NCBI GenBank assembly: GCA_019237095.1
Contig: JAFAHT010000593.1
Span: 1 to 32,163, forward strand
Direction: 5' to 3'
DNA: 32,163 bases
Source: Planctomycetaceae bacterium
GTDB taxonomy: Bacteria > Planctomycetota > Planctomycetia > Isosphaerales > Isosphaeraceae
The position numbers and the translations under genes were made by a program. This document shows, piece by piece, positions 2 to 23,003 of this stretch (within the stretch, counting starts at the first letter, position 1; each line of letters opens with the position of its first letter). The notes under the pieces are model-generated. The model ran no database searches, was not told where the DNA came from, and was given only the letters and a program-made list of their open reading frames with translations.

Positions 2-232
2 GTCCGCGAGGCCCCCGGCCTGATCCTCTGCCTGCTTTACTTTGCCATTCTCCCCGAGCTGATGAGGCGGCTCTTCTTCAAGAAATACGCCGAGCAGGCT
101 GGCTTTCTGTGCTACATGACCCTGGCGATCCTGCTCCTGTTCATGGCTAGCCTGCCGATCAAGATGGTACTGCGCTGGACAATCAACCTGAAATACCTGG
201 TGGCTATTCCCGAGTACTTCTTCAATATCTAA
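2..232 (+). CDS. C-terminal end of a cytochrome b-type membrane subunit (partial)
   Basis: This open frame enters from the left edge and stops at 230-232, giving the last 76 residues of a membrane protein. It shows two hydrophobic helices (about residues 5-21 and 35-52 of the visible part) and ends with a tail reading LKYLVAIPEYFFNI. The 'LPIKMVLRW' stretch and this tail resemble the C-terminal end of cytochrome b / subunit IV-like proteins that sit next to multiheme cytochromes in planctomycetes; I recall this rather than having tested it. The next gene, 108 bases downstream on the same strand, is a membrane-anchored octaheme cytochrome, which fits a quinol:cytochrome c oxidoreductase cluster. 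Haem-ligating histidines and the quinone site would lie outside the window, so the call rests on the tail and the context. Confidence 0.6.
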   Translation, partial: VREAPGLILCLLYFAILPELMRRLFFKKYAEQAGFLCYMTLAILLLFMASLPIKMVLRWTINLKYLVAIPEYFFNI

Positions 233-340: not shown

Positions 341-3300
341 ATGCCAGCATCCGAGGAAACCTACAGACGTCAGCCCACGCTCCATATCATCTTCGCGATC
401 TCGTCGATCGCGATGACACTGTCGATCATCTGGATGATCATGGCTGACCACTTACGCCCTTGGAAGCAAGTCCAGCGCGAATTCCACGTCGTTGAACGCG
501 ATAAGCTGAAGGCCGTCGAGAAGGCGACTCTCGAGAAGAGGAAAGGCGATGTCCAGAATCAGATCGACGAGTTCGACAGGAAGATCAAGGAGGCCGAGCA
601 GGGGGCGGCCCAGCGCGCGGCCGACCTGAACCGGCTCGACACGGAGCTCAAGGGACTCCAGGCAAAGACCGAGAAGCTCGACACCGAGCGGAAGTTCAAG
701 AAGGCCGAGCTCGATAGCCTGCGCAGCCTGTACGACGGTATGGTCGAGCGCGATCAGGAGCGTGAGGCGCGCGTTTACCTGAACACAACCGTCGCCAAGG
801 CCGAGCAGCAGCTCCTTGTGCTGACGCGCGAGCTCGAGGAATCCCAGACCAAGCTCAAGCTGAAAGAAGATGAGAAGGAGAAGCTGCTAGGCTATGTTGA
901 TAACCTGGTCAAGGAGCGCGAGAAGCTGACCCGCGAGGCTGACCGGGTCCAGCGGCTGCTCGATCAGAAGGAGGCCCAGTACTTCGGCCTGCTGGCCTGG
1001 CTCCGTGGCCTGCCCGGGATCGACATGGCCGCCCCACCGACCAAGATCATGCAGATCAGCCTGCCCAATCTGACGATCAACTACAACTTCAAGGACGTTC
1101 CTCGCTATGATCGTTGCACCACCTGCCACCAGGGCATCGATAAGGTGGGTTACGACAAGGACGCCAGCGGCAAGCCGATGCCCGAGGTCTTTGCTTCCCA
1201 CCCCTTCCTGACCTCGGGCGCGACGTATGTCGATGTCAAGGGGAAGGTGTCGCCCGCCGGGCTCTACCTCGACGGCAACGGCCCGCATCCGATCAACGAT
1301 TTCGGCTGCACCATCTGTCACGGCGGTCAGGGCTCGGGTACGGATTTCACGTTTGCTTCGCATACGCCGGCAAACGTCGAGGAAGAAGAGCACTGGAAAG
1401 AAAAGTACGGCTGGCAGGCGATCCATCACTGGGACTATCCCATGCTGCCGCAGCGGTTCATCGAATCGAGCTGTGTGAAGTGCCACCATCAGATCACCGA
1501 TATCCCCCAGGCCAAGAAGCTCCAGGCCGGCTACCAGCGGATCGTGCAGTATGGCTGCACGGGGTGCCACACCATCGGCGGCGAGGGCTCCTTTGGACCC
1601 GACCTGACCGACGAGCGGACGGTCGGCCCCAATCTCAGCCATGTCGCATCCAAGGTCACGAAGGATTGGGTACTCAAGTGGATCAAGAACCCTCACGCCT
1701 TCCGGCCCGATACGCGGATGCCGCGGTTTTACGGTTTGACCAACAACGACAGCAAGGACGACCTGCCCAAGAGCCACGCCGAGATCCAGGCGATCACCCA
1801 TTACCTGTTCGCCAGGAGCACGCCGCCTGAAGACTTCGTCGCACCCCCAGCGCAGACCGACGCCAGGCGAGGCAAGGAGCTTTTCCTCCAGAAGGGATGC
1901 CTGGCCTGTCACCAGCATCGGCCCTACGAAGCCGGTTCCGTCCAGGTGGCCGACCGCAAGTCGATCAATCCTGACTACAAGCCCGACCCGGCCGTGACCT
2001 ACGATCCCAAGAACCTCCCCGAATCGGTGCGGACCTATGCTCAGGCCGATTACGGCCCGAACCTCGGCAACATCGCCGCCAAGTTCCGAGACCAGTCCGA
2101 CAAGGGGCAGAAATGGCTGTCCAACTGGATCCAGAACCCCGAGAAGTACCATCCCAAGAGTCTGATGCCCAAGCTTCAGTTCACCTTCCAGGACGCCGCC
2201 GACATTGCCTCCTGGCTGATCTCGGTTCCCGGCGACTGGCCGGTGCGGGTCGAGGTCCCGCCCATCGAGGACAAGAGCGTCGCCATGGCCCTCGACGACC
2301 TGGTCAAGCTCTACGTGACCAAGGGCGGTTACAAGAACCGGGACGGCAAGACGCTCTCGGTCTCACTGAGCGAGGTCGACCAGTTCGTCGGCAAGCTCGG
2401 CACCGATGAGAAGCTCTATTTTCTGGGAGAAAAGACGATCTCGCGGCTGGGTTGCTTTGGCTGCCACTCGATCCCTGGTTTCGAGAACGCCAAGCCGATC
2501 GGCACCCCGCTCAATGACTGGGGCATCAAGAGCCCGACCAGGCTGGACTATGGCCACATCCGAGAGTACCTGGAGGATCGGCCGCCGCAGGCCAGCGGCG
2601 ACCGCGACGGGACCGACCGCTTCTATCAGGAGCAGATCGAACACGAAACCCGCATCGGCTTCCTGTACCAGAAGCTGCACCGTCCCCGCAGCTACGACTA
2701 CCTGAAGGACAAGGAGAAGTACAAGACCTGGGACGACCGGCTGCGGATGCCGCAGTTCGCCTGGGCCAACGATCCGGCCGCCGTCGAGGAGGTGATGACT
2801 TTTATCCTCGGCTTGACGGGCGAGAAGGTTGGCTACAGGTATCTGGCCAAGGCCAACTACAACGATGTCCAGACCGCGCTGGCGAAGGGCGGCAAGGTGC
2901 TCATTCGGTACAATTGCACGGGCTGCCATGTCCTGGAGATGCCCAAGTTCTCTCTTTCCGAGGGAACGAAAGTGGCCGACGCCTTCACGGACTTCAGGTC
3001 CAACGTGAGGTCGTCTTACACGGCACGCAATAACGATTTCCTCGCCGAGCTGTACCCCGCACTAACCTACGATCCCAAGAAGAAGCTCGATGCCGACAAC
3101 ATCGAATCCGAGCTGGCCTTGCAACAGGACGACGGCAAGCCGGTCACGATCGAAGGCATGCCGATTGGCCTGTTCGAGAATGAGCTGACCGTCCAGCTCT
3201 GGAAACCGGTCACGATCCGGGGTTATACCTTCAACGTGGGCGACAACGTGACTCTCGATCAGACGAAAGTGCAGAAGACGCCCGCGGTCGGCGGCAACTT

Positions 3301-4036
3301 TGCCTGGCTGTACGCGACCGCCGCACAGGAGCGTACCGGCACCAGCTTCGAGTCCTTCTGGAACCGCCTGCCTCCCCCCTTGGTCCGCGAGGGGAACAAG
3401 GTGCAGACCCCTTGGTTTGCCCTTTTCCTGCGGGACCCCTACGCGATGCGGCCGGCCGCCCAGCTCCGGATGCCGCGATTCCACTATGGCAAGGCCGTCG
3501 GCACCCCGACCCGCGAGACGGAAGACCTGGCCGACTACTTCGCGGCCCGGGACGGCGCCGAGTTCCCCTACCAGACGATTCCCCAGCAGCAGGTGGGCTA
3601 TATCGCCGAGCGGAACACGATTCATCCCGACTACCTGGGTGCCGGCTGGTCAATGATGGCCAACAAGGGCTCGCCCTGCATCCAGTGTCATGCCATCGGC
3701 CAGTACAAGCCGACCGGTGGCGAGCAGGTCGTCAACGGTCCCGACCTGAGGCAGGTCGCCACGCGGTTCCGTCCCGGCTTCCTCGAGATGTGGATCGCCA
3801 ATCCCAAGCGGCTGGTGCCTTACACCGCGATGCCGCAAAACGTGGTACCCCACGGGGCACCGCAGCTACCAGTGCCCAGGACTTTCGAGAACCAGCCGAT
3901 CGAGATGGTCCGGGCAATCCGTGATACCTTGCTAAACTACACCAACGTGGTCGAGCAGCAGCTAGCCGGTGCCAAAGCCCCGGCGGCCCAGCCTGCTACT
4001 ACCGCGGCCACCAAGCCCACCGGGGCTGTCGAGTAA
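341..4036 (+). CDS. Membrane-anchored octaheme c-type cytochrome with N-terminal coiled coil
   Basis: The 1231-residue protein has one N-terminal membrane helix (about residues 14-36), then a charged heptad-rich coiled coil (about 45-220), then a cytochrome region. Eight CXXCH haem-attachment motifs begin at C259, C323, C378, C406, C520, C705, C859 and C1113. Five Met-Pro motifs follow the last five haems (M460, M609, M803, M1044, M1164). This suggests five class-I-type domains with His/Met ligation, preceded by three clustered haems in a His-rich stretch that may be bis-His. It probably faces the periplasm and carries electrons from the adjacent cytochrome b-type subunit to soluble acceptors; the two cupredoxin-like proteins downstream are candidates. 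The start ATG has an AGGA about 10 bases upstream. The tail after about 1205 is Ala/Thr/Pro-rich. The multiheme call is firm; the complex membership is inferred. Confidence 0.93.
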   Translation: MPASEETYRRQPTLHIIFAISSIAMTLSIIWMIMADHLRPWKQVQREFHVVERDKLKAVEKATLEKRKGDVQNQIDEFDRKIKEAEQGAAQRAADLNRLDTELKGLQAKTEKLDTERKFKKAELDSLRSLYDGMVERDQEREARVYLNTTVAKAEQQLLVLTRELEESQTKLKLKEDEKEKLLGYVDNLVKEREKLTREADRVQRLLDQKEAQYFGLLAWLRGLPGIDMAAPPTKIMQISLPNLTINYNFKDVPRYDRCTTCHQGIDKVGYDKDASGKPMPEVFASHPFLTSGATYVDVKGKVSPAGLYLDGNGPHPINDFGCTICHGGQGSGTDFTFASHTPANVEEEEHWKEKYGWQAIHHWDYPMLPQRFIESSCVKCHHQITDIPQAKKLQAGYQRIVQYGCTGCHTIGGEGSFGPDLTDERTVGPNLSHVASKVTKDWVLKWIKNPHAFRPDTRMPRFYGLTNNDSKDDLPKSHAEIQAITHYLFARSTPPEDFVAPPAQTDARRGKELFLQKGCLACHQHRPYEAGSVQVADRKSINPDYKPDPAVTYDPKNLPESVRTYAQADYGPNLGNIAAKFRDQSDKGQKWLSNWIQNPEKYHPKSLMPKLQFTFQDAADIASWLISVPGDWPVRVEVPPIEDKSVAMALDDLVKLYVTKGGYKNRDGKTLSVSLSEVDQFVGKLGTDEKLYFLGEKTISRLGCFGCHSIPGFENAKPIGTPLNDWGIKSPTRLDYGHIREYLEDRPPQASGDRDGTDRFYQEQIEHETRIGFLYQKLHRPRSYDYLKDKEKYKTWDDRLRMPQFAWANDPAAVEEVMTFILGLTGEKVGYRYLAKANYNDVQTALAKGGKVLIRYNCTGCHVLEMPKFSLSEGTKVADAFTDFRSNVRSSYTARNNDFLAELYPALTYDPKKKLDADNIESELALQQDDGKPVTIEGMPIGLFENELTVQLWKPVTIRGYTFNVGDNVTLDQTKVQKTPAVGGNFAWLYATAAQERTGTSFESFWNRLPPPLVREGNKVQTPWFALFLRDPYAMRPAAQLRMPRFHYGKAVGTPTRETEDLADYFAARDGAEFPYQTIPQQQVGYIAERNTIHPDYLGAGWSMMANKGSPCIQCHAIGQYKPTGGEQVVNGPDLRQVATRFRPGFLEMWIANPKRLVPYTAMPQNVVPHGAPQLPVPRTFENQPIEMVRAIRDTLLNYTNVVEQQLAGAKAPAAQPATTAATKPTGAVE

Positions 4037-4232: not shown

Positions 4233-5180
4233 ATGACGACGAGCTGGATGCGCAAACCGGCGACCCTGGGCCTGAGCCTGGGAGTCACCTTGATGGCCTC
4301 TCTCTTCGGCTGTGGCGGCCAGGGCACCGAGAGCGACGCAGTGGTCGTGCCGGACTCGACCGTGAGTTCCAATCCCGCGGCCAAGACTTCGGCGGCTTCC
4401 GCGCCGGGATCGAGCGCTCCCTCCGCCGCAACCACGCCGGCGACCAGCGCGCCGGCGGCGGCCGCGCCGGTCAAGGCCGAAGGTTTCGGCACCCTCAAGG
4501 GCCAGGTCACCTTCGCCGGTGATCCGCAGCCTCCCAAGGTCCTCTTTGAAAAAGGGAAGGCGGCCAAGGACCCCGATGTCTGCGCCAAGGACGCGCCTTT
4601 GATTTCGGAGCGGCTGGTGGTCGATGGCGGCACCAAGGGCGTCAAGAATGTGCTGGTCTATCTGAACAAGCCCACGAGCGTCAGCGACGAGGCCAAGAAG
4701 GCCGCGGCCGCGACCAACGTCGTCTTCGACCAGAACAAGTGCGTTTTCGATCCGCACGTGCTCGCTGTCCTGGCCAACTCGACGATCGCGCTCAAGTCGA
4801 GTGATCCGGTGAACCACAACATCAACGCCAAGCTCAAGGCGTCCGGCGCGTTCAATCAGTTACTCGCCCCGCAGGCCAGCACCAAGTTCACACCGACGGA
4901 CCCCGAGCGCACACCCGCGGAGGTGACGTGCGATATCCATCCCTGGATGAAGGCCTGGTGGATGGTCTTCAATCATCCTTACTTCGCGGTTACTGACGCC
5001 AAGGGATACTTCGAGATCCAGAATGCTCCCGCCGGCACACAGAAGGTCGTGGTCTGGCAGGAAGCCGTGGACAAGGGCGGCTTCGTCACGGCACCTTCCG
5101 GCGACGAGGTGGTGATCAAGGCCAACGATTCGGTGGTCAAGGACTTCAAGGTCGAACAGTCCCGCCTGCGTGCGGAATAA
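4233..5180 (+). CDS. Cupredoxin-like lipoprotein (tandem paralogue 1)
   Basis: The 315-residue protein begins with a lipoprotein signal peptide whose predicted lipidated residue is C27 (context SLFGCGG). An Ala/Ser/Pro-rich linker runs to about residue 85. The remainder is a beta-rich domain of the type often annotated as carboxypeptidase-regulatory-like, methylamine-utilisation-like or plastocyanin-like. H195 (in SDPVNHN) plus C233, H236 and M239 (in CDIHPWM) are placed like type-1 copper ligands, although the His-to-Met spacing is shorter than in plastocyanin. The open frame extends upstream to 3969, but that extension overlaps the cytochrome gene; the ATG at 4233 has a GGGAG about 8 bases upstream and starts exactly at the signal peptide. 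The neighbouring octaheme cytochrome suggests a role as a membrane-tethered electron carrier. Copper binding is inferred. Confidence 0.85.
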   Translation: MTTSWMRKPATLGLSLGVTLMASLFGCGGQGTESDAVVVPDSTVSSNPAAKTSAASAPGSSAPSAATTPATSAPAAAAPVKAEGFGTLKGQVTFAGDPQPPKVLFEKGKAAKDPDVCAKDAPLISERLVVDGGTKGVKNVLVYLNKPTSVSDEAKKAAAATNVVFDQNKCVFDPHVLAVLANSTIALKSSDPVNHNINAKLKASGAFNQLLAPQASTKFTPTDPERTPAEVTCDIHPWMKAWWMVFNHPYFAVTDAKGYFEIQNAPAGTQKVVVWQEAVDKGGFVTAPSGDEVVIKANDSVVKDFKVEQSRLRAE

Positions 5181-5284: not shown

Positions 5285-6124
5285 ATGCGATGGATCTTCC
5301 GTTCCGGCGGGCTGGGGGCCGTGGGCTTGATGCTTGTGGCCGTGGGCGCGCGCTTTGCGACTGCCGCGAATCTGCCCGTCGGGTCATTGGGAGTGACGCC
5401 AGCTGCGCAGGGTGAGTACGGGACGATCAAGGGCCGTCTGGTCTGGGGCGGAAGCGACGTTCCCCCTGCCCGGGCGCTGATCGAGAAGGGGCGAGCACAA
5501 AAGGATCCGGAGATCTGCGCCAGGGAAGCGGCAATTCCCAACCGCGAGCTGGTCGTCGATCCCAAGACCAAAGGCGTGGTCTCTGGCTTTGCTTACCTGG
5601 TCAAGCCCAAGGGCTCCAACCCAGGGGCTGTCAAGGAGCTGCTGACCAGGAGCCCGAAGGCGGAGCTCGACCAAAAGAATTGCGAGTTCTTGCCCTATGT
5701 CCTGGCCATTCATCAAGACCAGACATTGGTGATCAAGTCCAGCGACCCCGTCAATCACAACGTTCGTTACGCCGCTTTCGCCAATTCGCCGTTCAACCAG
5801 ATCATGGCTCCGAAAGGGGAGATCGAGGTGAAGCTGGTCGCCGAGCGGCGGCCGATCGTCGTGGCCTGCGACATTCATTCGTGGATGAAGGCCTACATCA
5901 TGGTTTTCGACCACCCCTTCTTTGCAGTCACCGGTGCCGATGGCGCGTTCGAGATCAAAGGCGTGCCGGCCGGCGAACAGAACTTGGTGCTCTGGCAAGA
6001 GAGGGTCGGCTACGTCGGCTTCACCGACCCAGCCAAGAAGGCTCAGGGTAGGGCGGTCACGATCCGCGCCGGTGAGGTGACGGACCTGGGATCGGTCGCG
6101 ATCGATCCGGCGCAGGTGAAGTAG
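5285..6124 (+). CDS. Secreted cupredoxin-like protein (tandem paralogue 2)
   Basis: The 279-residue protein has a cleavable-looking signal peptide (hydrophobic core about residues 10-27, ending ATAA). Its domain aligns along its whole length with the preceding lipoprotein. Shared blocks include KSSDPVNHN, a CDIH-WMKA block, a phenylalanine-rich strand near 'HPFFAVT', and a final PAG-VLWQE strand. Candidate copper ligands are H158, C195, H198 and M201. It lacks the lipobox Cys and the long linker, so it should be soluble in the periplasm rather than tethered. A GAGG at 5276-5279 is well placed for the ATG at 5285. The intrinsic terminator ending at 5266 leaves almost no room for a promoter, so expression must depend on read-through or on an upstream promoter. 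Tandem duplication is visible; the electron-transfer role is inferred. Confidence 0.85.
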   Translation: MRWIFRSGGLGAVGLMLVAVGARFATAANLPVGSLGVTPAAQGEYGTIKGRLVWGGSDVPPARALIEKGRAQKDPEICAREAAIPNRELVVDPKTKGVVSGFAYLVKPKGSNPGAVKELLTRSPKAELDQKNCEFLPYVLAIHQDQTLVIKSSDPVNHNVRYAAFANSPFNQIMAPKGEIEVKLVAERRPIVVACDIHSWMKAYIMVFDHPFFAVTGADGAFEIKGVPAGEQNLVLWQERVGYVGFTDPAKKAQGRAVTIRAGEVTDLGSVAIDPAQVK

Positions 6125-6312: not shown

Positions 6313-6739
6313 TGAGAAGTGCCCGGGCCCACGTCTGTCAGCACGCTTCAGACGGCCAATTCTGCCGGCAAGGTGGGGAAACATGGCTTGCTGGGTGGCG
6401 GCGAGTCGTTTTCCGGGTCGGCACGGAAGATCGTCGGTCCAGTGGAGAGTAGAACATCGCTTGAACAGAGGGCGAAGGTGCACAATCTCTTGGCACGTGT
6501 GACTATGGGTGAAACTTCGTCGTAACCTATTGGAGGAGTCATCGGGAGTCGGACACTGTTTGGTACCGGATTTGCGGTTGCATGTGGAGGATGGTTTGGT
6601 GTCCAATTGATCCTTAACGCGAATGATTTCCCTTTCCATCATCGAATCTTCTCCCGCCCGCGAGGGAAGGATCATTCAGAGAACGGACTGCCAGCCTGCT
6701 CCGGCATCGATCATGGCTCCAGGAAGGGAGATCGACAGG
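6313..6739. other. Intergenic stretch without a convincing gene
   Basis: About 430 bases lie between the small membrane protein and the chosen start of the large propeller gene. Base composition is less GC-rich and more mixed than in the coding neighbours. A frame at 6526-6771 encodes a hydrophobic segment but has no ATG, GTG or TTG before it. No convincing -35/-10 pair or T-tailed hairpin was found. The promoter of the downstream block is expected here but could not be identified. Confidence 0.5.
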
Positions 6740-9700
6740 TTGACACTCTCTCGTGGTTCATCTTGCGGTGAATTGCAGTCGTTCCCGGCAAGCGGGGCTG
6801 GATTGCCTGGATTGAGCAGGGACGGGCAGCGAGGCGACGGTTTCCGGTCCGGCTTCGGAGCGCGAGCCCTGGCGTATCCGGTTTTATCGTTAATGCTGCT
6901 GGTCTGCGGGCTGATCTCGGTAGAGGGGGTCGCGCGTGGTCAGGGACCAAGCCACGGTGCGTCGAAATTCTATCCCGACTCCAGCGAGAAGGCCGAAACC
7001 CTGCTCCGGAATGCGGCCAGCCTTGCCCGTGACAGCCAGTGGTCTGAGGCGATCGAGATCTACCAGCGGATCATCGACCAGTACGGGGACAAGGTCGCCA
7101 AGCTTCCCAAAGACAAGGTCGGGACCGTTGACCAGACCTCCGACGAGTTCGTCCTGTTCGTGGATCTGAGGGCCTACTGCCATCGGTCGCTGGCGAAGCT
7201 CCCCCCCGAGGCGCGGGCGATTTACCGTAATCGCATGGACAGCCTGGCCGAGCGCTGGTTCCGGGAAGGGGAGAGCCGGCGCGACGCCGCCTTGCTCCGG
7301 CGCGTCGTCGAACTCACTTTTTGTAGTTCCTGGGGCGATGAGGCACTCGAGCTCCTGGGCGACCTGGCGTTCCAGGATGGACGCTTTGGAGAGGCGCTGG
7401 CGATGTACCGCCCGCTCGTGCCGGACCGGCCTGATGACGCGTTCGGTCTGGTCCATCCTGATCCCAGCGTCGATCTGGCACGGATCGCCGCCAAGAAGCT
7501 CTTGTGCCGCGCCGCCGCCGGCGAGAAGCTCATGCTTGCTCAGGAGCTGGAGAGTTTCAGCAATCGGTTCCCTGGGGCTTCCGGCGCGCTCACCGGGCGA
7601 AAGGGGCCGTACGCGAAGATTCTGGAAGAATCGCTTCGCGCCGACCATCTTGCTCCTCCGGCGCAGCCCGACAGCCGCTGGCCGACCTTCGCAGGCGCCT
7701 TCTCACGCACCAGGGTCGTGGCCGAGCCGATCGACGTCGGGTCGTTACAGTGGAGAGTTTCTCTCGAGCGGATCGTGTCGAATCGGTCCGGCTATTCGTA
7801 CGGTTTTCCCCGCGGCATGTCTTCCAACCCTGCGTTGCCGCTGGACCGCTTGCTCGGGTATTACCCGATCGTGCTGGGAGACCAGGTCATCGTGGGCGAT
7901 GGCACGCGGGTGCTTGCGTACAATCTGAATGATCGGCCTGGCAACCGCGAGGGGGGCGTGGCGCTGGCGATCGAACCGGCCTGGAAGTACGATCCCGATA
8001 CCACTGTGCCCCAGGCGTACCGGACCAGTTCGGGGATTCCCCGCTACACCCTGACCGCGGTCGGCAATCGCGTCTACGCCCGCATGGGCGCCGCGACACC
8101 CTCGCCCTTTGCGAATCCGAACCGGGGGGGCGGGTCGAGCAGCTACATCATTGCGCTCGACTGGAGCACGCAGGGCAAGCTGCTCTGGTTGCAAAAATCC
8201 AGCGACCTGATCCTGCCCAACCGCCCCGCCGATCGCATCAACCGGTCGGTCAATTTCGAGGGGACGCCGGTAGCGGATAGCCGCAACGTGTTCGTGGCGG
8301 TGACCGATCGGCGCGAGCAGACAGCGACCTATGTCGCCTGTTTTGACGCAGACACCGGTGCGAACCGCTGGGTGCGCTACCTGGGGGCAGCGTCGTCCGA
8401 GGTTGACAATTTCATGGCGATGGGGGGGCTGGGCTTTGCTGGACTCGTCGCCAGCGATTACGGGCACCGGCTGCTGTCGCTCGATGGCCCCTTCCTTTAC
8501 TACCAGACGAACCTTGGAGCGGTGGTCGCACTCGAGGCCGAGACCGGAGTGGTGCGCTGGGTCGCGAATTATCCGCGCCAGGATTCGGCAAGGATGGGCG
8601 GCAGCGACCGCGATCTGAACCCGGCGGTGGTGCACGACGGGCTCGTCATCGTCGCTCCCAGCGATGCCGCCGCCATTTACGCGTTCGCCGCCGACAGCGG
8701 GCGGTTGGTCTGGAAGACCGATCCCATTGCCGAGGAGGTCAAGCTCACTCATCTTCTGGGCGTGGCCAGGGGTCGGCTGGTAGCCACCGGCGATCGGGTT
8801 CTGCTCTTCGATGTCAAGACCGGCAAGCTGGCCGCCACCTGGCCCGACTCGGGCAAGTCCGAAGGCTACGGCCGCGGCCTGCTGGCGGGGAATCGAATTT
8901 ACTGGCCCACCCGGGACAGGATCGAGGTCCTCGACCAGGGCTCCGGTCTGCGCGCTGAGCCGCCGATCAAGCTGATGGAGATCTACCGGACGACCGGGGG
9001 AAACCTGGTGGCCGGCGACGGCTACCTGATCGTGACGCAGCCCGACGCCCTGGTCGTATTCTGCCAGAACAGCCGGCTGATCGAGCGATATCGTGACGAG
9101 ATCGCGCGGAACCCGGAGCACGCGGCGACCCATTACCGGCTGGCTCGAGCCGCCGAGGCGGTCGGCCGCGACCAGCTTGCGCTGGAATCGTACGACCAGG
9201 CGACCCGCAGGGCAGGACCGGCCGAGACCATCGACGGCGTTCCCCTGGCCGAGGCAGCACGCGACCACGAGTTCCGGCTGCTCCTGCGGGTGGTGGCGGC
9301 GGCCCGGAGCGACAAGAAATACGGCGCGGCGATCAGCGGCCTGGAGACCGCCTCGCGGATCGCCCGATCCGATGCCGACCGGCTGAGGGCCCGGTTGCTT
9401 CTGGCCGACATCCAGATGCAAGCCGATCGGCCGGCCGCCGCGATCGATATTCTCGAGCGGGCGCTGACCGACGACCGGCTGCGGGGTTTGACCGTGAGCA
9501 CGGAGGACGGCCACCGCGCCATCCGCGCGGACCTGCTGATCGCCGATCGCCTCTCGGAGCTCGTCAAGCAGCGCGGGCGATCGATCTACGACGCGTCCGA
9601 CCGCAACGCCCGCGAGCTCTATGACCGGGGGCTGCGCGAGCAAGATCCCCGCCTGCTCGAGGAGGTCAGCCGGATCTTCCCGGTGGCCGAGGTCGTTCCC

Positions 9701-11308
9701 GAGGCGCTGCTGGAACTCGGCCAGATTCACCAGGGTGCGGGGCGACCGGCCGCCGCCACCCAGGCGTACAAGCGGTTGCTCACCCTGGGGGCGGTTCCCG
9801 ACGTTGCTCGCGCCCGGGCACTCTGGAGACTCGCCCACGTTTACGAGGCGGAGAACTATCTGGTCTCGGCCCGCGACGCCTACCTCCAGCTCCAGACGCG
9901 CTATCCGCGGATCAAGCTGCCGGAGCTCGCAACCGACGTCCCACTGGGCGAGCGGGTATCGGCCAAGCTCACCCGCGGGCCGCTGGCGCAGATCGCCCTG
10001 GACCGTCCCCGGGCAACGGTGCCGCTGCCTTTGGCGCGGCGCTGGCACGTGCAGTCGCAGACCGGCCGCAATGTCCGGGTTCTGAGTGTCGTCGGGACGC
10101 CTCCGGGGCTGCAATCGAGCCGTGCGTTCGCGGTCGAGGGATCAGTCCTGACTCCGCTCGATCCCGCGACCGGCGAACCACGCTGGACGGTCGACCTGGG
10201 ATCGCCCGCGGTCTGGGTGGGCTATCTCTCGGAGAAGGTGGTGGCGGCCTCGGCCCAGCGGGTCGTTGGTCTCGACCCGGCGACCGGGGCGGAGCAGTGG
10301 CGGCTCGCTGCCGGCATGCCTTCCCGCTCGCGCCGCCTTCCCGATCCGTTTGCCCGCTGCGGTCCTCCCGCGGGCGGCCCGGAGGGCGCCAGGGCGGCCT
10401 TCCACGATTTCCACCCGGTTGGCGGCCGGCTCTTCTGTCTGCGGGGTGATGAAGAGCTGATCGCGATCGATGCCGAGAGCGGAGCCGTCGATTGGTCGTT
10501 CACTTCGAAGGACGGTGCGCTCAATCCGAAACTCTGGATCGGTCCGGAGCGCGCCGTCGTGCAGGTCCAGAACCCCAACCGCCTGCTGGTGCTCGAGACC
10601 GAAAGCGGGCGGCAGGTGGCGCGGGCTCCGCTGGCCGACGGAGAAGCTCTGGAGAGCGCGCCGGTGCCGATCGACGAGGATCATGTGCTGCTGGTGCCGG
10701 ACCGGCGCACGGTCAAGAACTTCGACCTCGGGCGCGGCCTGTTCACCTGGGATTACCGGGAGAGCGCCGAGATGCCGGTCAACGGCCCGCCCCGTGTACT
10801 GGTCGATGCCGAGCGCGTGCTGGTGCTGCATGACGGGCGCCTCCTGATTCGCCTGGACCCGGTCAGCGGCGCGAAGCGATGGTCGTCGCTGCTGGGCACT
10901 GAAAACCTGAGCGACCGGCTCGATGCGCTCGCATGCGATGACCGGCGGGTCTACTGCGTGAGCCAGCAGACACTGCGGGCGCTGGCGGTGGACGACGGCT
11001 CGCCGCTCTGGACCTGCTACCTGACCGGACCGGAAAACGCGCATTGGTCGATTGCGCTGACCGACCGGTGCGTGATGGCCTATCCCAGCCTCTCGGAGCT
11101 CTCCGAAGGGGAGTTGGAGAGCATGCCCGTCGTGGTCCGGCGGCAAGATACCGGCGCCCTGGTGCAGCGTTTCGTCTTTTCCGCGACGATCGCGGATGTC
11201 AAGCTGAGGCTGGACTCCCGGGGCGTGCTGGTCGCAACGTACCGCGGCCTCTGGGCCCTTGCTCGACGGGACGGCGGTGCCGATCCCAAGCCTTCCCCTC
11301 TTCCCTGA
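6740..11308 (+). CDS. Exported TPR / PQQ-type beta-propeller protein
   Basis: A very large exported protein (1522 residues from the TTG at 6740). After a hydrophobic export segment (about residues 45-65) comes a short TPR-like helical region (about 80-125, with AETLLRNAASLARD). A first beta-propeller of PQQ/BamB-like repeats spans about 337-780, with units such as ALEAETGVVRWVANY and FAADSGRLVWKTDP. A second TPR-rich section covers about 785-1070. A second propeller (about 1090-1515) has units such as PATGEPRWTVDLG and AESGAVDWSFTS. I prefer TTG 6740 because AGGAAGGGAG ends 9 bases upstream; ATG 6623 and ATG 6713 are in frame but lack a good ribosome site. The TPR-propeller-TPR-propeller layout suggests a periplasmic scaffold. 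It precedes the MoxR gene by 124 bases. Enzymatic PQQ binding is not implied. Confidence 0.85.
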   Translation: MTLSRGSSCGELQSFPASGAGLPGLSRDGQRGDGFRSGFGARALAYPVLSLMLLVCGLISVEGVARGQGPSHGASKFYPDSSEKAETLLRNAASLARDSQWSEAIEIYQRIIDQYGDKVAKLPKDKVGTVDQTSDEFVLFVDLRAYCHRSLAKLPPEARAIYRNRMDSLAERWFREGESRRDAALLRRVVELTFCSSWGDEALELLGDLAFQDGRFGEALAMYRPLVPDRPDDAFGLVHPDPSVDLARIAAKKLLCRAAAGEKLMLAQELESFSNRFPGASGALTGRKGPYAKILEESLRADHLAPPAQPDSRWPTFAGAFSRTRVVAEPIDVGSLQWRVSLERIVSNRSGYSYGFPRGMSSNPALPLDRLLGYYPIVLGDQVIVGDGTRVLAYNLNDRPGNREGGVALAIEPAWKYDPDTTVPQAYRTSSGIPRYTLTAVGNRVYARMGAATPSPFANPNRGGGSSSYIIALDWSTQGKLLWLQKSSDLILPNRPADRINRSVNFEGTPVADSRNVFVAVTDRREQTATYVACFDADTGANRWVRYLGAASSEVDNFMAMGGLGFAGLVASDYGHRLLSLDGPFLYYQTNLGAVVALEAETGVVRWVANYPRQDSARMGGSDRDLNPAVVHDGLVIVAPSDAAAIYAFAADSGRLVWKTDPIAEEVKLTHLLGVARGRLVATGDRVLLFDVKTGKLAATWPDSGKSEGYGRGLLAGNRIYWPTRDRIEVLDQGSGLRAEPPIKLMEIYRTTGGNLVAGDGYLIVTQPDALVVFCQNSRLIERYRDEIARNPEHAATHYRLARAAEAVGRDQLALESYDQATRRAGPAETIDGVPLAEAARDHEFRLLLRVVAAARSDKKYGAAISGLETASRIARSDADRLRARLLLADIQMQADRPAAAIDILERALTDDRLRGLTVSTEDGHRAIRADLLIADRLSELVKQRGRSIYDASDRNARELYDRGLREQDPRLLEEVSRIFPVAEVVPEALLELGQIHQGAGRPAAATQAYKRLLTLGAVPDVARARALWRLAHVYEAENYLVSARDAYLQLQTRYPRIKLPELATDVPLGERVSAKLTRGPLAQIALDRPRATVPLPLARRWHVQSQTGRNVRVLSVVGTPPGLQSSRAFAVEGSVLTPLDPATGEPRWTVDLGSPAVWVGYLSEKVVAASAQRVVGLDPATGAEQWRLAAGMPSRSRRLPDPFARCGPPAGGPEGARAAFHDFHPVGGRLFCLRGDEELIAIDAESGAVDWSFTSKDGALNPKLWIGPERAVVQVQNPNRLLVLETESGRQVARAPLADGEALESAPVPIDEDHVLLVPDRRTVKNFDLGRGLFTWDYRESAEMPVNGPPRVLVDAERVLVLHDGRLLIRLDPVSGAKRWSSLLGTENLSDRLDALACDDRRVYCVSQQTLRALAVDDGSPLWTCYLTGPENAHWSIALTDRCVMAYPSLSELSEGELESMPVVVRRQDTGALVQRFVFSATIADVKLRLDSRGVLVATYRGLWALARRDGGADPKPSPLP

Positions 11309-11420
11309 AGGTGGCCAGCCATCTGCCGAACCTGCAACCGAGAAGACAAGTCCGTCGACCCGAGGTGCCGCGTACGCCCGCCGTCGCGGCAAGGGCTGCG
11401 CACCGCACCATCCCCTTTAC

Positions 11421-11425
11421 GGAGG
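11421..11425 (+). promoter_or_regulatory. Ribosome binding site fixing the MoxR start
   Basis: GGAGG lies 7 bases before the GTG at 11433. It decides the start against the longer in-frame extension that reaches back to 11259 inside the propeller gene. Confidence 0.8.
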
Positions 11426-11432
11426 TCTCCGC

Positions 11433-12518
<1,086 letters not shown>

Positions 12519-13408
12519 CCTCGAGGGGCTCGATCTCCAGGCCCGGCTTGTGGTCGAGGGCTACGTCGCGGGCATGCATCCCAGCCCCTACCACGGCTTC
12601 TCCGTCGAGTTCGCCGAGCACCGCGAGTATGTGCCGGGCGACGACATCCGCCATGTGGACTGGAAGGTGTGGTGCAAGACGGACAAGCTTTACCTCAAGC
12701 AGTACGAGGAGGAGACGAACCTGCTCCTGTACCTGCTTCTGGACACCAGCGAATCGATGGTGTACGCCTCGGGCCAGAACGTATCCAAGCTCAGGTACGC
12801 TCAGTTCGTTGTTGCGGCGCTGGCCTACATGGTCATCCAGCAACAAGACTCTGTCGGCCTGGGTCTCTTCGATGACTCCGTCCGCCGCTACCTGCGTCCG
12901 GCCAGTCAGCCATCGCACCTCAAGGAGCTCTTCCACGTGCTCGAGGTGACTCCGGCACGCGAGAAATCGAACGTGGGTGCGGTACTGCACGACCTGGCGG
13001 AACGGTTCAAGAAGCGGGGGGTGGTGGCCATCTTCTCCGACTTCTTTGATGATCCGGCCCGGATCATGGCCGGGCTCAAGCACTTCCGCCACCGCCGGCA
13101 CGAGGTCATCGTCTTCCACGTGCTCGACCCGGCGGAGATTGAGTTCCCGTTCCGGGAAACCACGCTGTTTCGGGGCCTGGAGGGTCTGCCCGGGATCCTC
13201 ACCGAGCCGCACGCGCTGCGGCGCGCCTATCTGGCCGAGCTCGGCGCCTTTCTTGACGAGCTGAAGACGGGCTGCCGGATGATCGACATCGACTATGTTC
13301 CCCTGCGCACCGATCAGAGCCTCGAGGGCCCGCTCTCGAGCTACCTGGCCTCGCGCGAGGCGCGCGCCGTGTGATTGCCCTGGAGAGCCGGATCTGGACA
13401 CCAGCCTC

Positions 13409-15619
13409 ATGTTCTTCCCGTCATCACCACCGCTCTTGTGGGCGCTCGAGTTTGCCAACCCCGGGCTGCTTGCCGGGCTGGCGGCTGCCTCGATACCAAT
13501 CGTCATCCATCTGCTCAACCGGCGCAAGTTCCGGGAGATGCCGTGGGCGGCGATGCAGTTCCTGATGGCGGCGATCCGCAAGAACCAGCGGCGGGTGCGC
13601 ATCGAGCAGTGGCTGCTCCTGGCCGTGCGGACCCTGTTGATCTTGCTCATCGTCGCCGCGATGGCCAAGCCGTTCCTGGAGAGCTTCGGCAACGTGATCG
13701 CCGGCCAGCGCACCCACCGGGTCCTGGTCCTGGACGGCTCGTTGAGCATGGGCTATACCACGGGCGACAAAAGTCGATTCGACCTGGCCAAGGATGTGGC
13801 CACCCGGCTCGTCAAGGACTCGCGTCAAGGAGACGCCGTCAGCCTGATCATGATGGGAGAGCCGCCCCGAGTGGTCATCGGCGACCCCTCGCCCAACCTG
13901 ACCGAGGTCCAGAAGGAGATCGCCGAGCTCACCATGACCCACGGGTCGACCGACCTGCAAGCGACCTTCGAGGCGATCGATCGGGTCCTCGACGTCTCGA
14001 CGATCCCGCAGAAAGAAGTCATCTTTCTGACCGACCTGCAGAGCACAAGCTGGCGCAGGCCGCCAGCGACGGGTAAAGACGGCCTGGACCGGGTCCTGGC
14101 CAAGCTCGAGGCCAGGAGGCCGCGCTCGGTGATCATCGATCTGGGCAAGGCGGGCAGCGAGAACCGAGCGGTGACCGACCTCACGATCGACACCCCGGTG
14201 GTGACTGCCGGATCGACGCCCCTGGTGCGGGCGGTCATGCGCAACTTCGGGCCTTCGAAAGCCGACGGCGTGCTCGTACGGCTGATCATGGATGGCCGGG
14301 TCAGCTCCGAGCAGTCGGTCGATCTGCCGGTCGGCGAGGACGTTCCCATCATCTTCAACCAGCCCTTCACCACTCCCGGCGACCACATCGTCGAGATCGC
14401 GATGGACAACGATCCGCTGCCCCTGGATGACCATCGCTGGCTGGTCGTGCCCGTTCGCGAGTCGCTCTCCGTGCTGCTGGTGGACGGGCATTTCCGCTCT
14501 GAGCCGTTCCAGGCCGAGACCGACTATCTGGCCCAGGCCCTGGCTCCCACCGAGGGGTCGCCAGGTCAGCCGGGCATGATCCGCTCCGAGGTCGTCTCGG
14601 AATCTCAGCTCTCGCGTCGCGACCTGCCAGCCTTCGACGTTGTGGCGCTGTGTAATGTGGCCCAGTTCAGCCAGGGTGAGGTCGCGGCACTCGAGGATTA
14701 CCTCAAGCAGGGGGGCGGACTGATCATCTTCGGCGGCGATCAGGTGATCGCCGACAATTACAACCGGCTGCTCTACGCGGATGGCAAGGGGCTATTGCCG
14801 GCCGCCTTGGGCCCGACCGTGGGCGGTGCGGCCAAGAAGGCGGCCGCCTTCGCCTTCAATCCGCTAGGCTACCGGCATCCGCTGGTGGCCGAGTTCCGCG
14901 GCGAGTCCGATCCCGTCACCGCCGGGCTGACGCAGACCGCGATCTGGCAGTACCACAAGCTGATCAAGCCGGCGGATTCAAACGCCCAGGTTGCGCTGGC
15001 CTTTGACAGCGGCGATCCCGCGATCATCGAGGCTCCGCGAGCGCGCGGCAAGGTGATCCTGGTGGCCACCTCGGCCGACGCGGGCTGGACTAGCTGGCCA
15101 CTGCACAATAGCTACCCGCCGATCATGCAACAGATGATCCTCCAGGCTGCGGCCGGCCGCCTCGCCGAGCGGAACATCCGGGTCGGCCAGCCGTTCGACC
15201 AATCCTACGCCGCGGCCGGCGTCTCAGCGACCGCGACGGTGGTCACTCCCAAGGGTCAGGCTGTGGCATCCCGGTTGAAAGGAACCGGCGGTGTCAGCCA
15301 GCTCCACTTCGAGCAGACCGAGCTGTCGGGCACTTATCAAGTGCGGATCGGTCCCCCGCTTACCGTGGAAAGCACCTTCGCCGCCGATCCGGACCCGGCC
15401 GAGAGCGATCTGGCCAAGCTCGACCGCAGCGCGCTGGAACAAAGGCTTCCCGGCTGGAGCTTCTCCCTCCTGACCAACAGCCCCGAGTTGAGCCAGAGCG
15501 CCGCCTCCGTGGGCCGCCGCGGCGAACTCCACCGGCCCTTGCTTTACGGAGCGCTTGTTCTCTTGCTCCTGGAAACATTCCTGGCCTGGAAGTTTGGATA
15601 TCACGATTCCTCTTCATAA
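13409..15619 (+). CDS. BatA-type membrane protein with VWA and GATase-like domains
   Basis: The 736-residue protein starts with the BatA N-terminal module: a membrane helix within FANPGLLAGLAAASIPIVI, then HLLNRRKFREMPW, then a second helix about 70-90. A VWA domain follows with the MIDAS motif DGSLS (D109, S111, S113) and LTDLQ further on. After a beta-sandwich, CARDB-like stretch there is a class-I glutamine-amidotransferase-like Rossmann region (about 350-600, with EDYLKQGGGLIIFGG) that lacks an obvious catalytic Cys. A last helix near residues 710-727 anchors the C-terminus. The open frame extends upstream to 13295 inside the DUF58 gene, but ATG 13409 matches the usual BatA N-terminus. 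The VWA part probably faces the periplasm. The function is likely assembly or sensing, not amidotransfer. Confidence 0.92.
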   Translation: MFFPSSPPLLWALEFANPGLLAGLAAASIPIVIHLLNRRKFREMPWAAMQFLMAAIRKNQRRVRIEQWLLLAVRTLLILLIVAAMAKPFLESFGNVIAGQRTHRVLVLDGSLSMGYTTGDKSRFDLAKDVATRLVKDSRQGDAVSLIMMGEPPRVVIGDPSPNLTEVQKEIAELTMTHGSTDLQATFEAIDRVLDVSTIPQKEVIFLTDLQSTSWRRPPATGKDGLDRVLAKLEARRPRSVIIDLGKAGSENRAVTDLTIDTPVVTAGSTPLVRAVMRNFGPSKADGVLVRLIMDGRVSSEQSVDLPVGEDVPIIFNQPFTTPGDHIVEIAMDNDPLPLDDHRWLVVPVRESLSVLLVDGHFRSEPFQAETDYLAQALAPTEGSPGQPGMIRSEVVSESQLSRRDLPAFDVVALCNVAQFSQGEVAALEDYLKQGGGLIIFGGDQVIADNYNRLLYADGKGLLPAALGPTVGGAAKKAAAFAFNPLGYRHPLVAEFRGESDPVTAGLTQTAIWQYHKLIKPADSNAQVALAFDSGDPAIIEAPRARGKVILVATSADAGWTSWPLHNSYPPIMQQMILQAAAGRLAERNIRVGQPFDQSYAAAGVSATATVVTPKGQAVASRLKGTGGVSQLHFEQTELSGTYQVRIGPPLTVESTFAADPDPAESDLAKLDRSALEQRLPGWSFSLLTNSPELSQSAASVGRRGELHRPLLYGALVLLLLETFLAWKFGYHDSSS

Positions 15620-15625
15620 GGCTCA

Positions 15626-18091
15626 TTGACGGTGAAGGATTGGATATATCAAAAGCTGGCTGATGCCCTGAACGTGCCCCCCGCGCAGGCGGGTGAGGGG
15701 ATCTCGCCGCGCATCCGGCTCGAGCAGCCCTGGCCGCAATGGCTGCTCATCGCCGTCGTGCTGGGCGGGTCCGCCCTCATCGTCTGGTTTTATCGCAGGG
15801 AGGGCAGGGCGTCCGCCTTTTACAAGTACCTGCTTGCCGGCATCCGGATCTGCCTGCTCCTGCTTCTGGTGTTCATGATTTCAGAGGCCGTGCTCTCGGT
15901 GGAGCGTACGGGCTTGCCGTACCTGACCATCATGATCGACGACTCGGCCAGCGAGCAGATCGCCGACCAGTACGAGCGGCCCGAGACTCGGGCGGCTTTG
16001 CAGACCCTGGCCAGCCAGGCGGCGGCCCCGGCCTTGCCCTCGAGCCCAGCCCCCGCGCCGGCGGGGAACGGTCCGGCCGCGGACGTCACGCGGATCGAGA
16101 TCGCCAAGGGGCTGGTTCTGAAGGACAAGGCTCGCTTGATCCAGGAGCTGCAAAAGCAGCACAAGGTCAGGCTCTACCTGGTCTCGAACTCCGCCCGGCT
16201 GCTGGCCGAGGTGGACCGGCCCGCGGAGATCATGCCGGCCGCCGACAAGCTGCGCGAGGTGCAGGGGACCGGCAGCCAGTCGCGCCTCGGGGACGCCACC
16301 CGGCAGGTCTTGACCGAGCTCCGCGGCGCGCCGCCCTCGGCGATCGTGCTCCTCTCCGACGGCCAGACCACCGAGGGCGAACCGCTGGCCAAGGCCGCCG
16401 AGCTGTCGGCGCGAAAGGGCGTTCCCATGTTCACAATCGGCCTGGGAAGCGCCGAACCCGCGCGCGACCTGGAGCTCACGGAGTTGCTGGTGGACGATGT
16501 CGTGTTCGTCGATGATGCGGTGCGGTTCCAGGCAAAGCTGCTGGCCCGGGGCTTCCAGGGCCAGAAGGTGGTGGTCCGGCTCATGGAGCGAGACGCCTCC
16601 AGCGCCGACCCCAAGGCCGCGCGCGAGCTCGCTTCCACCGAGGTCGAAGCCCCTGCCGACGGCCAGCCCAGGCGGGTCGAGCTGGTGCACCGGCCCAAGA
16701 CCACGGGCGAGCGCACCTTCATCCTGGAGATCGAGCCCAAGCCGCGCGAGCTCCAGGTCGAGAACAACCGGATCGAGCGCGTGGTCACCGTCCGCAAGGA
16801 GAAGCTCAAGGTGCTGCTGGTGGAGAGCGAGCCCCGCTACGAGTTCCGCTACCTGAAGAATTACCTCGAGCGCGAGGAGACGATCGACCTGGGCGTGGTG
16901 CTGCTCTCTTCGGATCCCGAGTACAGCGAGCAAGACCGCTCTGCCTTACCGACATTCCCCGCCGCCAAGGACGAGCTGTTCGCATTCGATGTGGTGATCG
17001 TGGGTGATGCCGACCCGGGCTTTCTGAGCCACTCGCAGATGCAGAACCTCACCGAGTTCGTGACCGACAAGGGGGGCGGCATCCTCTTCGTGGCGGGCGA
17101 GTCGTTCAACCCTCTGGCCTATCGGGGGACACCGCTGGAGCTGCTCTTGCCGATCGAGCTGGCCGATGCCCGCAACCCGACGGCCGTGGGCAACGCCATC
17201 AATTCTTACCGCCCCGAGCTGACGGTGGAGGGGCGAGCCAGTCCGATCTTCCGGTTCGGCGAGAGCGAGGCCGCCAGTGCGCTGATCTGGCAGGGGCTGC
17301 CCGATCTTTTCTGGTACTTCGAGGCACCCCGCAAGAAGCCTGCGGCGCTCGTCCTTGCCGAGCATCCCACGGCCACTGGCAGCGAGGGAAAACTCGCGCT
17401 CGATCTGTACCAGTTCGCCGGGGCGGGCAAGGCGATGTTCCATGCATTCGACGACACCTGGCGGTGGCGGTTCCGCGCCGGCGATCGCTATTTCGGGCGC
17501 TTCTGGGTCCAGGCGATCCGGTTCTTGGCGCGCTCGAAGCTCGTCGGCCAGCGCCAGGCCGAGATCCAGACCGACCGTCGCCGTTACGAGCGCGGGCAGC
17601 CGATCCGGCTCCGCGTTCGCTTCCCCAATCCCGGTCTGGCGCCGGCGGTCGGATCGGCTACCGTGCAGATCGAACGCAACGGCCTGGGTCCGCGGAAAGT
17701 GACACTGAACCAGGTTCCCGGCACTCGCAATGTGTTCGAGGGGGCACTGCCGCAGGCGCCCGAGGGCGATTACGACGTCCGCCTGCTGCCCCCGCCCATA
17801 CTCGACGGCCCGATCCCGACGGCGACCTTCCGCGTCGAGGCTCCGGCCAGCGAGTTCGAGCGCGTGCAGATGAATGAACCCGAATTGATCCGGGTGGCGG
17901 CGGCGACCGGGGGCAAGTTCTACACGCCGCTGACGGCCGACACGCTCTTGCAGGACTTGCCCAAACCGTCCAAGGTCCCGCTGGATACCGATCCGCCGAT
18001 CCCCCTCTGGAACACCTGGCCGGTGCTGGGACTTTTCCTCACGCTGATCACGCTGGAATGGGTTCTCCGAAAACGCAAGCAGATGGTATGA
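15626..18091 (+). CDS. Second VWA / GATase-like membrane protein
   Basis: The 821-residue protein follows the BatA-type gene by 6 bases. It starts at TTG 15626; GTG 15632 is an equally possible start that removes two residues. Two N-terminal helices (about 36-56 and 70-92) precede a VWA-like domain with DDSAS (D105, S107, S109) and the strand AIVLLSDGQTTEGE. An Ala/Pro-rich insert separates the MIDAS from the rest of that domain. A GATase-like region follows (about 390-640, with KVLLVESEPRYEFRYLKNY and GGGILFVAGESF), then a beta-rich region, and a C-terminal helix (about 794-811) with a basic tail. It mirrors the architecture of the preceding protein, so the two may form a heteromeric membrane complex with MoxR and DUF58. 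Ligand and partner are not known. Confidence 0.88.
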   Translation: MTVKDWIYQKLADALNVPPAQAGEGISPRIRLEQPWPQWLLIAVVLGGSALIVWFYRREGRASAFYKYLLAGIRICLLLLLVFMISEAVLSVERTGLPYLTIMIDDSASEQIADQYERPETRAALQTLASQAAAPALPSSPAPAPAGNGPAADVTRIEIAKGLVLKDKARLIQELQKQHKVRLYLVSNSARLLAEVDRPAEIMPAADKLREVQGTGSQSRLGDATRQVLTELRGAPPSAIVLLSDGQTTEGEPLAKAAELSARKGVPMFTIGLGSAEPARDLELTELLVDDVVFVDDAVRFQAKLLARGFQGQKVVVRLMERDASSADPKAARELASTEVEAPADGQPRRVELVHRPKTTGERTFILEIEPKPRELQVENNRIERVVTVRKEKLKVLLVESEPRYEFRYLKNYLEREETIDLGVVLLSSDPEYSEQDRSALPTFPAAKDELFAFDVVIVGDADPGFLSHSQMQNLTEFVTDKGGGILFVAGESFNPLAYRGTPLELLLPIELADARNPTAVGNAINSYRPELTVEGRASPIFRFGESEAASALIWQGLPDLFWYFEAPRKKPAALVLAEHPTATGSEGKLALDLYQFAGAGKAMFHAFDDTWRWRFRAGDRYFGRFWVQAIRFLARSKLVGQRQAEIQTDRRRYERGQPIRLRVRFPNPGLAPAVGSATVQIERNGLGPRKVTLNQVPGTRNVFEGALPQAPEGDYDVRLLPPPILDGPIPTATFRVEAPASEFERVQMNEPELIRVAAATGGKFYTPLTADTLLQDLPKPSKVPLDTDPPIPLWNTWPVLGLFLTLITLEWVLRKRKQMV

Positions 18092-18222
18092 TCCTTGCTT
18101 ATAGTGAATGGTTACCACAGATTGACGAGGGAGCCGTGGTCCGGACCCGTTGATTCGAGTCTTTTATTCATCCCGAGGAGTTCCGCGGCCGAGGCTCAGC
18201 GCGTCTGGGCTGGGAGGGGTCG

Positions 18223-21966: not shown

Positions 21967-21968
21967 TC

Positions 21969-23003
21969 ATGATTGTCAAGCGCTCGCTGATCTCGTCCCT
22001 CGCCCTGGCTGTCGGGCTTGGCTGGTGCGCAAGCTCGGTGGCTCAGGACATGGGAAAGACCCAGGACGAGACCCTCGATTCGCTGCTGGAGAAGCTGGAA
22101 AAGCCCGGTCAGGGTCAGAAGCCGGCCAAGGAGCCGGAAAAACACGAGAAGGATGCAAAGCCTGACCTCAAGCCAGAAGAACCGGCCGCCAAGGCAAAGC
22201 CGGGTACCGACGCCAAGCCCAAGACCGAGGCCAAGCCGAAGCCAGTAAGTGGACAATCCGCAAAGCCCGTGGACCGCGCGAAAACCGGTTCCGGTGACGT
22301 GTCGTCCCAAGACAAGGACCTCGACGCGCTGCTGGAGAAGCTGGGCGAGACCAAGGACGAGCCAGCCCCAGAAGAGCGGCCCCGGTCACATTCACAGCCG
22401 GGCGAGCCGTCTGGCCCCTCCCAGCCCGCTCCTGACGGTGGGAGCGGAGAGAAAACCAAGCAGAAGGATCAAGGGCTGCACGGCAAGGACAAGGAGATCG
22501 ACGACAAGCTCGAGGAACTGGCCGGCAAGAAGCGTAAGAAGAAGGGTGGTGAGCAGGGCGAGGGAAGCGGCCCGCTTGGCGAGATCATCAAGGAGATGCG
22601 GGACGTCGAGCAGCGGCTGGGCAAGCCGGAGACCGGTGAAGATACCCAATCCAAACAGAAGCGAATCGTCAAGCAGATCGACACCCTCATCCAGCAAATG
22701 AAGCAGTCCGGCTCGTCGAGCTCGATGGCCATGCGGAGGGTGCGGCAACAGGGTCAGAAGCCGGGCGACCAGCCCGGTCAGACTCCCGGCGCCAACGCCG
22801 CCGGGGCACCGCCGATGAAGCCGGCCAAACCTTCGGACCGGCACGCCCCGGCGGGCGGCAAGGATATCTGGGGCCACCTTCCCGAAGAGCTCCGGCAAGA
22901 AATGGAAAACACCTTCAAGGAGGACGCGCTGCCCGCCAAGGCAGAGCTGATCCGTCGCTATTACCTGTCGGTTGCCAAGCAGAAGCTGGTTCGGGGAGAT
23001 TGA
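21969..23003 (+). CDS. Exported low-complexity protein with conserved-looking C-terminal segment
   Basis: The 344-residue protein begins with a clear signal peptide (MIVKRSLISSLALAVGLGW, cleavage probably after SSVAQ). Most of it is Lys/Glu/Pro/Gly-rich and likely disordered. A short motif recurs three times: LDSLLEKLEK near the N-terminus, LDALLEKLGE about 90 residues on, and IDDKLEELAGKK about 55 residues after that. The C-terminal 55 residues are ordered, beginning DIWGHLPEELRQEME and ending with an Arg/Tyr-rich helix (LIRRYYLSVAKQK). Similar WG-LP-R--YY tails occur, as far as I recall, in planctomycete proteins encoded with VWA genes. The start overlaps the upstream gene's stop region and the stop is 3 bases before the next ATG. 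It is probably a periplasmic partner of the long coiled-coil protein; its function is unknown. Confidence 0.8.
   Translation: MIVKRSLISSLALAVGLGWCASSVAQDMGKTQDETLDSLLEKLEKPGQGQKPAKEPEKHEKDAKPDLKPEEPAAKAKPGTDAKPKTEAKPKPVSGQSAKPVDRAKTGSGDVSSQDKDLDALLEKLGETKDEPAPEERPRSHSQPGEPSGPSQPAPDGGSGEKTKQKDQGLHGKDKEIDDKLEELAGKKRKKKGGEQGEGSGPLGEIIKEMRDVEQRLGKPETGEDTQSKQKRIVKQIDTLIQQMKQSGSSSSMAMRRVRQQGQKPGDQPGQTPGANAAGAPPMKPAKPSDRHAPAGGKDIWGHLPEELRQEMENTFKEDALPAKAELIRRYYLSVAKQKLVRGD

Follow-up and report, generated by a model that had tools for sequence, protein, structure and literature searches.

We analysed a window of 32,163 nucleotides, positions 1 to 32,163 (forward strand) of contig JAFAHT010000593.1 in the Planctomycetaceae bacterium assembly GCA_019237095.1, for a single, intact open reading frame at 341-4036 on the plus strand, whose product of 1,231 residues is an octaheme cytochrome c. 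This protein is quite probably the c-type subunit of a b6f-like Rieske/cytochrome b complex, a relative of Kustd1480-1485 of Kuenenia without the NAD(P) oxidoreductase, and would serve as an electron wire leading to an acceptor in the periplasm. In such a Q-cycle enzyme, quinol would be oxidised at a Qp site built from cytochrome b6 and a subunit-IV-like protein. One electron would return to quinone via the b haems (and haem c_n), while the second would pass through the mobile Rieske head to the octaheme protein, in which a His/His triheme module and five class-I-like His/Met domains would form the wire. The cupredoxins encoded by adjoining genes would most likely be the periplasmic acceptor.

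Homologues of the octaheme protein were taken from the same family, from one genome collection (two loci only) and from the whole phylum, and 56 full or near-full sequences across Planctomycetota were aligned (median pairwise identity 30%, minimum 22%). The eight CXXCH motifs read in a preliminary description of the window were all found, with the haem His at residues 263, 327, 382, 410, 524, 709, 863 and 1117. All 8 are kept in the 56 homologues, except that the haem 1 motif is not aligned in a single, highly divergent sequence, probably through misalignment. Outside these motifs, the first 1,200 residues contain 22 His and 23 Met. Only three of these His are invariant (H287, H316 and H341), all located between the haem 1 and haem 3 motifs, and only five of the Met (M460, M609, M803, M1044 and M1164), each of haems 4 to 8 being followed by one. 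Conservation alone excludes that the octaheme feature, which is real and whose outline the preliminary description gave correctly, arose by chance. Since eight invariant candidate distal ligands match eight haems, the simplest reading of the alignment is that a triheme module with His/His haems precedes five His/Met domains, the named residues being the putative iron ligands. The 3 + 5 split first proposed from the DNA letters fits this exact count.

The triheme module extends over 1103..1501 on the plus strand, with CXXCH motifs 1 to 3 at 1115-1129, 1307-1321 and 1472-1486 and the candidate ligand codons of His 287, His 316 and His 341 at 1199-1201, 1286-1288 and 1361-1363. The preliminary description had placed the first three haems in a His-rich segment, which can now be sharpened: residues 254-387 hold seven non-motif His, exactly three of them invariant. 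The five following domains, on the same strand and invariant in 56/56 sequences, correspond to haem 4 (1556..1720; CTGCH 1556-1570, Met460 1718-1720), haem 5 (1898..2167; CLACH 1898-1912, Met609 2165-2167; PF00034), haem 6 (2453..2749; CFGCH 2453-2467, Met803 2747-2749), haem 7 (2915..3472; CTGCH 2915-2929, Met1044 3470-3472) and haem 8 (3677..3832; CIQCH 3677-3691, Met1164 3830-3832). The haem-7 segment carries a strand-rich insertion at residues about 935-980 of the AlphaFold2 model. Pro follows M460, M609, M803 and M1044 in 56/56 sequences and M1164 in 51/56. Met-Pro had been thought to follow the last five haems only; it is indeed conserved at these five, but MP dipeptides also occur at residue 280 after haem 1, where Met is poorly kept (9/56), and at residues 867 and 940 in the haem-7 segment. 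M867 and M940 were rejected as haem-7 ligands because they are not conserved (24/56 and 21/56, respectively). M368 (51/56) and H362 (45/56), considered as alternative ligands of haems 1 to 3, were placed below the three invariant His.

With 3 invariant His and 5 invariant Met for 8 haems, no haem is obviously free for catalysis. This bears on the possibility that the protein is not a wire but a terminal reductase of nitrite, nitric oxide or similar, an idea encouraged by the abundance of multihaem reductases in the phylum and by the HAO-like nature of Kuste4574 in a sister complex of Kuenenia (PMC12954380). Besides the eight invariant distal ligand candidates, the profile and structure searches speak against it. 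Among the Pfam and NCBIfam profiles, no multihaem reductase family scored above its cut-off, and neither the cytochrome f nor the cytochrome c1 profile matched; only generic cytochrome c matches were obtained, with PF00034 at residues 509-628. Foldseek comparison of the octaheme model with the PDB and viral structures gave no significant match to a solved fold, the only similarities being to coiled coils in the helical region. We therefore regard a reductase function as very improbable.

The AlphaFold2 model of the octaheme protein, built from 56 sequences, is a confident one, with a mean pLDDT of 89.9 and a pTM of 0.82. Residues 16-34, the sole hydrophobic segment of the protein, lie within a predicted N-terminal transmembrane helix at residues 11-37 (371..451, plus strand). 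Between this anchor and the haems, a coiled coil of about 175 residues had been announced and described as a stalk. The model bears out the length, residues 40-215 (458..985, plus strand) forming a long helical, coiled-coil-like region with breaks near residues 71, 92, 137-139 and 184, and in most homologues 220-290 residues separate the start from the first haem. The stalk role is less likely: in the published AlphaFold3 model, the long helices of Kustd1485 wrap the Kuenenia complex, the haems being grouped in twos and threes (PMC12954380). By homology, the long helices of the octaheme protein more probably encircle the membrane part together with the Rieske protein, like a belt. An insertion of about 100 residues was observed within the coiled-coil region of two homologues (L017:3575-7798 and L023:6382-10542).

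The window starts where contig C136 of the genome starts, inside a gene. Using tblastn, positions 2-232 (plus strand) were found to encode the C-terminal 76 residues of a subunit-IV-like protein; they show 76% identity to the 530-residue protein of Aquisphaera insulae (Isosphaeraceae), the nearest named relative, over its residues 456-530. The cytochrome b-type end noticed upstream of the octaheme gene is thus the C-terminus of this protein. Its remainder was recovered from C238, another contig of this genome, which shares an overlap of 147 identical bases between its own end and the start of the window. On the reverse strand of C238, a PEP-utilising enzyme gene comes first, then the Rieske gene, the cytochrome b6 gene and a partial gene (L027:3-1508, minus strand) coding for the subunit-IV-like protein up to residue 502, a part that matches PF00032. 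The Rieske protein and cytochrome b sought upstream of the octaheme gene are therefore both present.

The b6 protein (257 residues, four helices) has cytochrome b6 1q90 as best match. Its residues H107/H121 and H228/H243, the two bis-His b haem pairs, are invariant in 45/45 rows, as is Cys57, the aligned counterpart of the cytochrome b6 cysteine that holds haem c_n. The proposal of a planctomycete bc-type complex is retained as far as the Rieske/cytochrome b operon is concerned, but the type has to be corrected: with a four-helix b6, a separate subunit IV and an invariant haem-c_n cysteine, the predicted complex belongs to the split b6f type and not to bc1. The Rieske protein (L027:2545-3825, minus strand) has an Ala/Pro-rich N-terminal tail of about 255 residues, with repeats of GRPLTLKEKLAAARAGG, ahead of its membrane helix. 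The subunit-IV-like protein at L016:6314-7903, whose end corresponds in this genome to window 2-232, has about 270 extra N-terminal residues, with some seven hydrophobic segments and no Pfam match.

Gene order was compared among 50 octaheme loci, the counts being tallied by eye from the neighbourhood table. The order Rieske-b6-subunit IV-octaheme was observed in 40 of them and a cupredoxin-like gene adjoins the octaheme gene in 39, part of the missing cases corresponding to contig ends or cut regions. The octaheme gene is separate from the b6 genes in L069, L072, L066 and L077.

The best PDB match of the Rieske protein of this genome is 9rk3 (146 bits, 1.5e-41), Kuste4569 reaching 72 bits. Structure 9rk3 is Kustd1480 of Kuenenia stuttgartiensis (PMC12954380), and the Rieske protein of locus L070 is 100% identical to it along the full length. 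The gene order in L070 is Rieske, b6, an FAD/4Fe-4S NAD(P) oxidoreductase, subunit IV and an eight-haem protein of 946 residues. The latter, which by its position and homology is Kustd1485, shares 26% identity with the octaheme protein of the window over most of its length and keeps all the candidate ligands. Because a locus with a Rieske protein identical to Kustd1480 encodes a homologous octaheme protein, the predicted complex of the window can be considered related to the core of Kustd1480-1485. As its operon has no NAD(P) oxidoreductase gene, it does not qualify as a full member of the NAD(P)-linked complex.

This homology raises the question of electron bifurcation, published as a proposal for Kustd1480-1485 (PMC12954380), with NAD(P)+ reduction on the low-potential branch and the downhill reaction supplied by the octaheme branch. 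The oxidoreductase gene was found in only 1 of the 50 loci, that of Kuenenia, where it lies between b6 and subunit IV (L070:3538-5238); no homologue at E 1e-10 was detected among the genes adjacent to the 49 other octaheme loci. At the corresponding place in the genome of the window, the b6 and subunit IV genes are about 150 bases apart. We give very little credence to a bifurcation of this kind here, although such a subunit might be encoded elsewhere.

The presence of HZS_alpha (PF18582) was too broad a marker of anammox bacteria, being found in 76 genomes. The anammox assignment was therefore made from the 100% Kustd1480 match for L070, and from HZS-like frames of about 820 residues in their families for L069, L071 and L072. 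In a quick tree, with a midpoint root used for drawing only, the Planctomycetia rows, with the Isosphaeraceae among them, come together as one supported group of 25, and the putative anammox octaheme rows, four in number, as a second one that lies within the remaining classes. The tree is compatible with inheritance of the octaheme complex inside the phylum and, as a tentative direction of change, with acquisition of the NAD(P) module by the Kuenenia lineage or close to it.

Two cupredoxin-like genes lie downstream of the octaheme gene in the window. Cupredoxin 1 (4233..5180, plus strand) has a CarboxypepD_reg-like tail and, near its N-terminus, a Cys in a lipobox-like context (SLFGCGG). Its residues H195, C233, H236 and M239 are invariant in 54 cupredoxin homologues. 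The AlphaFold2 model (pLDDT 85.9) was matched by Foldseek to NirK, amicyanin and plastocyanin with E about 1e-6 to 1e-5, and the profile search against the PDB retrieved amicyanin, a blue-copper domain protein and copper nitrite reductases. Cupredoxin 2 (5285..6124, plus strand) is 41% identical to cupredoxin 1 and shares its copper-ligand pattern, NHN ... CDIHSWM. From the predicted fold and this pattern, both genes probably encode type-1 copper cupredoxins. In L077:7635-13553, an eight-haem protein and a cupredoxin domain are even found in one reading frame of 1,973 residues. The gene neighbourhood, the ligand pattern, the fold and this fusion, together with the analogy to plastocyanin and cytochrome f, single out the cupredoxin as a good candidate acceptor of electrons from the octaheme protein. 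Of the earlier suggestion that one protein replaces both cytochrome c1 and soluble c, we thus keep the c1/f role and not the carrier role: cupredoxin genes adjoining in 39 of the 50 loci suggest a separate copper carrier.

One may also imagine direct electron transfer from the octaheme protein to an oxidase without any mobile carrier, the cupredoxins serving for instance in copper storage or assembly. Eight haems could bridge a long distance, actinobacterial bcc complexes with a diheme c function without soluble c, and the cupredoxin gene is missing in 11 of the 50 loci. However, no oxidase gene was found in the octaheme cluster within the window, the caa3 oxidase of the same genome clusters with an NrfD-type complex, and the cupredoxins retain the full type-1 ligand set typical of electron carriers. 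Direct transfer to an oxidase consequently appears unlikely, though it deserves consideration.

Several observations weigh against a b6f-like complex with an octaheme wire to a cupredoxin. At the Qo motif, A-P-W-Y replaces the expected PEWY in every untruncated subunit IV row aligned, and normal quinol oxidation is not assured in the absence of the PEWY glutamate. The fused octaheme-cupredoxin gene of L077 is not beside Rieske/b6 genes, and there are the 11 loci devoid of a cupredoxin gene. Finally, the same genome encodes other carriers and two further quinol-oxidising systems. On contig C245 (L026), a Rieske gene accompanies a cytochrome b to which a diheme c domain is fused, an arrangement described for Kuste3096-3097 (PMC12954380). 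On contig C186 (L102), genes for an NrfD protein, an iron-sulphur protein and a monohaem cytochrome occur with a caa3-type oxidase, a set compatible with an alternative complex III-oxidase cluster. The genome thus probably has three quinol-oxidising systems, the octaheme complex included, which would not be the sole route from quinol since the C245 and C186 systems are also present.

The rest of the window is unrelated to the octaheme finding. It encodes a TPR plus PQQ-repeat protein of 1,561 residues (6623-11308), a MoxR-DUF58-BatA-VWA cluster (11259-25401) and, on the minus strand, a DPP-IV-type S9 peptidase (29216-32161).

Of 392 sampled planctomycete genomes, 134 have a match to an octaheme profile at E 1e-20, partial matches counted. 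The octaheme type of complex is already known, having been described first in the anammox bacterium Kuenenia, and that of the window is a variant of it. In the literature searched, we found no description of the octaheme subunit outside anammox bacteria, nor of the exact conserved ligand set, the wide non-anammox spread, the absence of the NAD(P) module or the conserved cupredoxin neighbour. An earlier description in ten Brink et al. (2013), reportedly a review on multiple Rieske/cytb complexes, is possible. The Kuenenia complex has hitherto been discussed as an anammox speciality tied to NAD(P)H production, whereas in the loci examined the Rieske/b6/subunit IV/octaheme core mostly has no NAD(P) module but a cupredoxin in its place. 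This provides a comparative handle on the origin of the anammox complex, and Aquisphaera and other Isosphaeraceae offer a cultured non-anammox model of a Q-cycle enzyme with a multihaem wire. We tentatively entertain the wider idea of a distinct bc-type complex of Planctomycetota, ancestral, with an eight-haem wire in place of cytochrome f/c1 and a dedicated cupredoxin, to which anammox bacteria would later have added the NAD(P) oxidoreductase.

Among known systems, Kustd1480-1485 shares with the complex of the window a Rieske protein of the Kustd1480 lineage (the closest of all solved structures), a b6-like protein with separate subunit IV, and a large, membrane-anchored multihaem c with long helices and eight CXXCH motifs replacing cytochrome f. 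It differs by the NAD(P) oxidoreductase gene of its operon, none being present in that of the genome studied here, and by the two adjacent cupredoxins and the long Ala/Pro-rich Rieske tail found here. The sizes also differ: 1,231 residues against about 946 in Kuenenia for the octaheme protein, and 530 (A. insulae) against 278, with five hydrophobic segments, for the subunit-IV-like protein. The Kuste4569-4574 complex is likewise of b6/subunit IV type with a multihaem c, Kuste4574 being HAO-like (PMC12954380); its Rieske protein is farther away (72 vs 146 bits), and the window has no such HAO-like octaheme enzyme.

The chloroplast and cyanobacterial cytochrome b6f has in common the split cytochrome b, the haem-c_n Cys and the Rieske protein, and its acceptor plastocyanin is a cupredoxin, to which the cupredoxins described here can be likened; here, by contrast, an octaheme protein stands in place of cytochrome f and PEWY is absent. 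Cytochrome bc1 has an unsplit cytochrome b and a cytochrome c1, unlike the split b6/subunit IV and the lack of a c1 match in our case. In the actinobacterial bcc complex, the diheme c QcrC replaces c1 and possibly soluble c. The c-type subunit thus has more than one haem in both systems, but the bcc complex has two haems in this subunit and an unsplit cytochrome b, and the QcrC profile matches the octaheme protein weakly (22.6 bits against a 200-bit cut-off). Finally, alternative complex III (Act) also couples a multihaem c with quinol oxidation, but without Rieske protein or cytochrome b, and the NrfD-type cluster is located elsewhere in the genome (L102).

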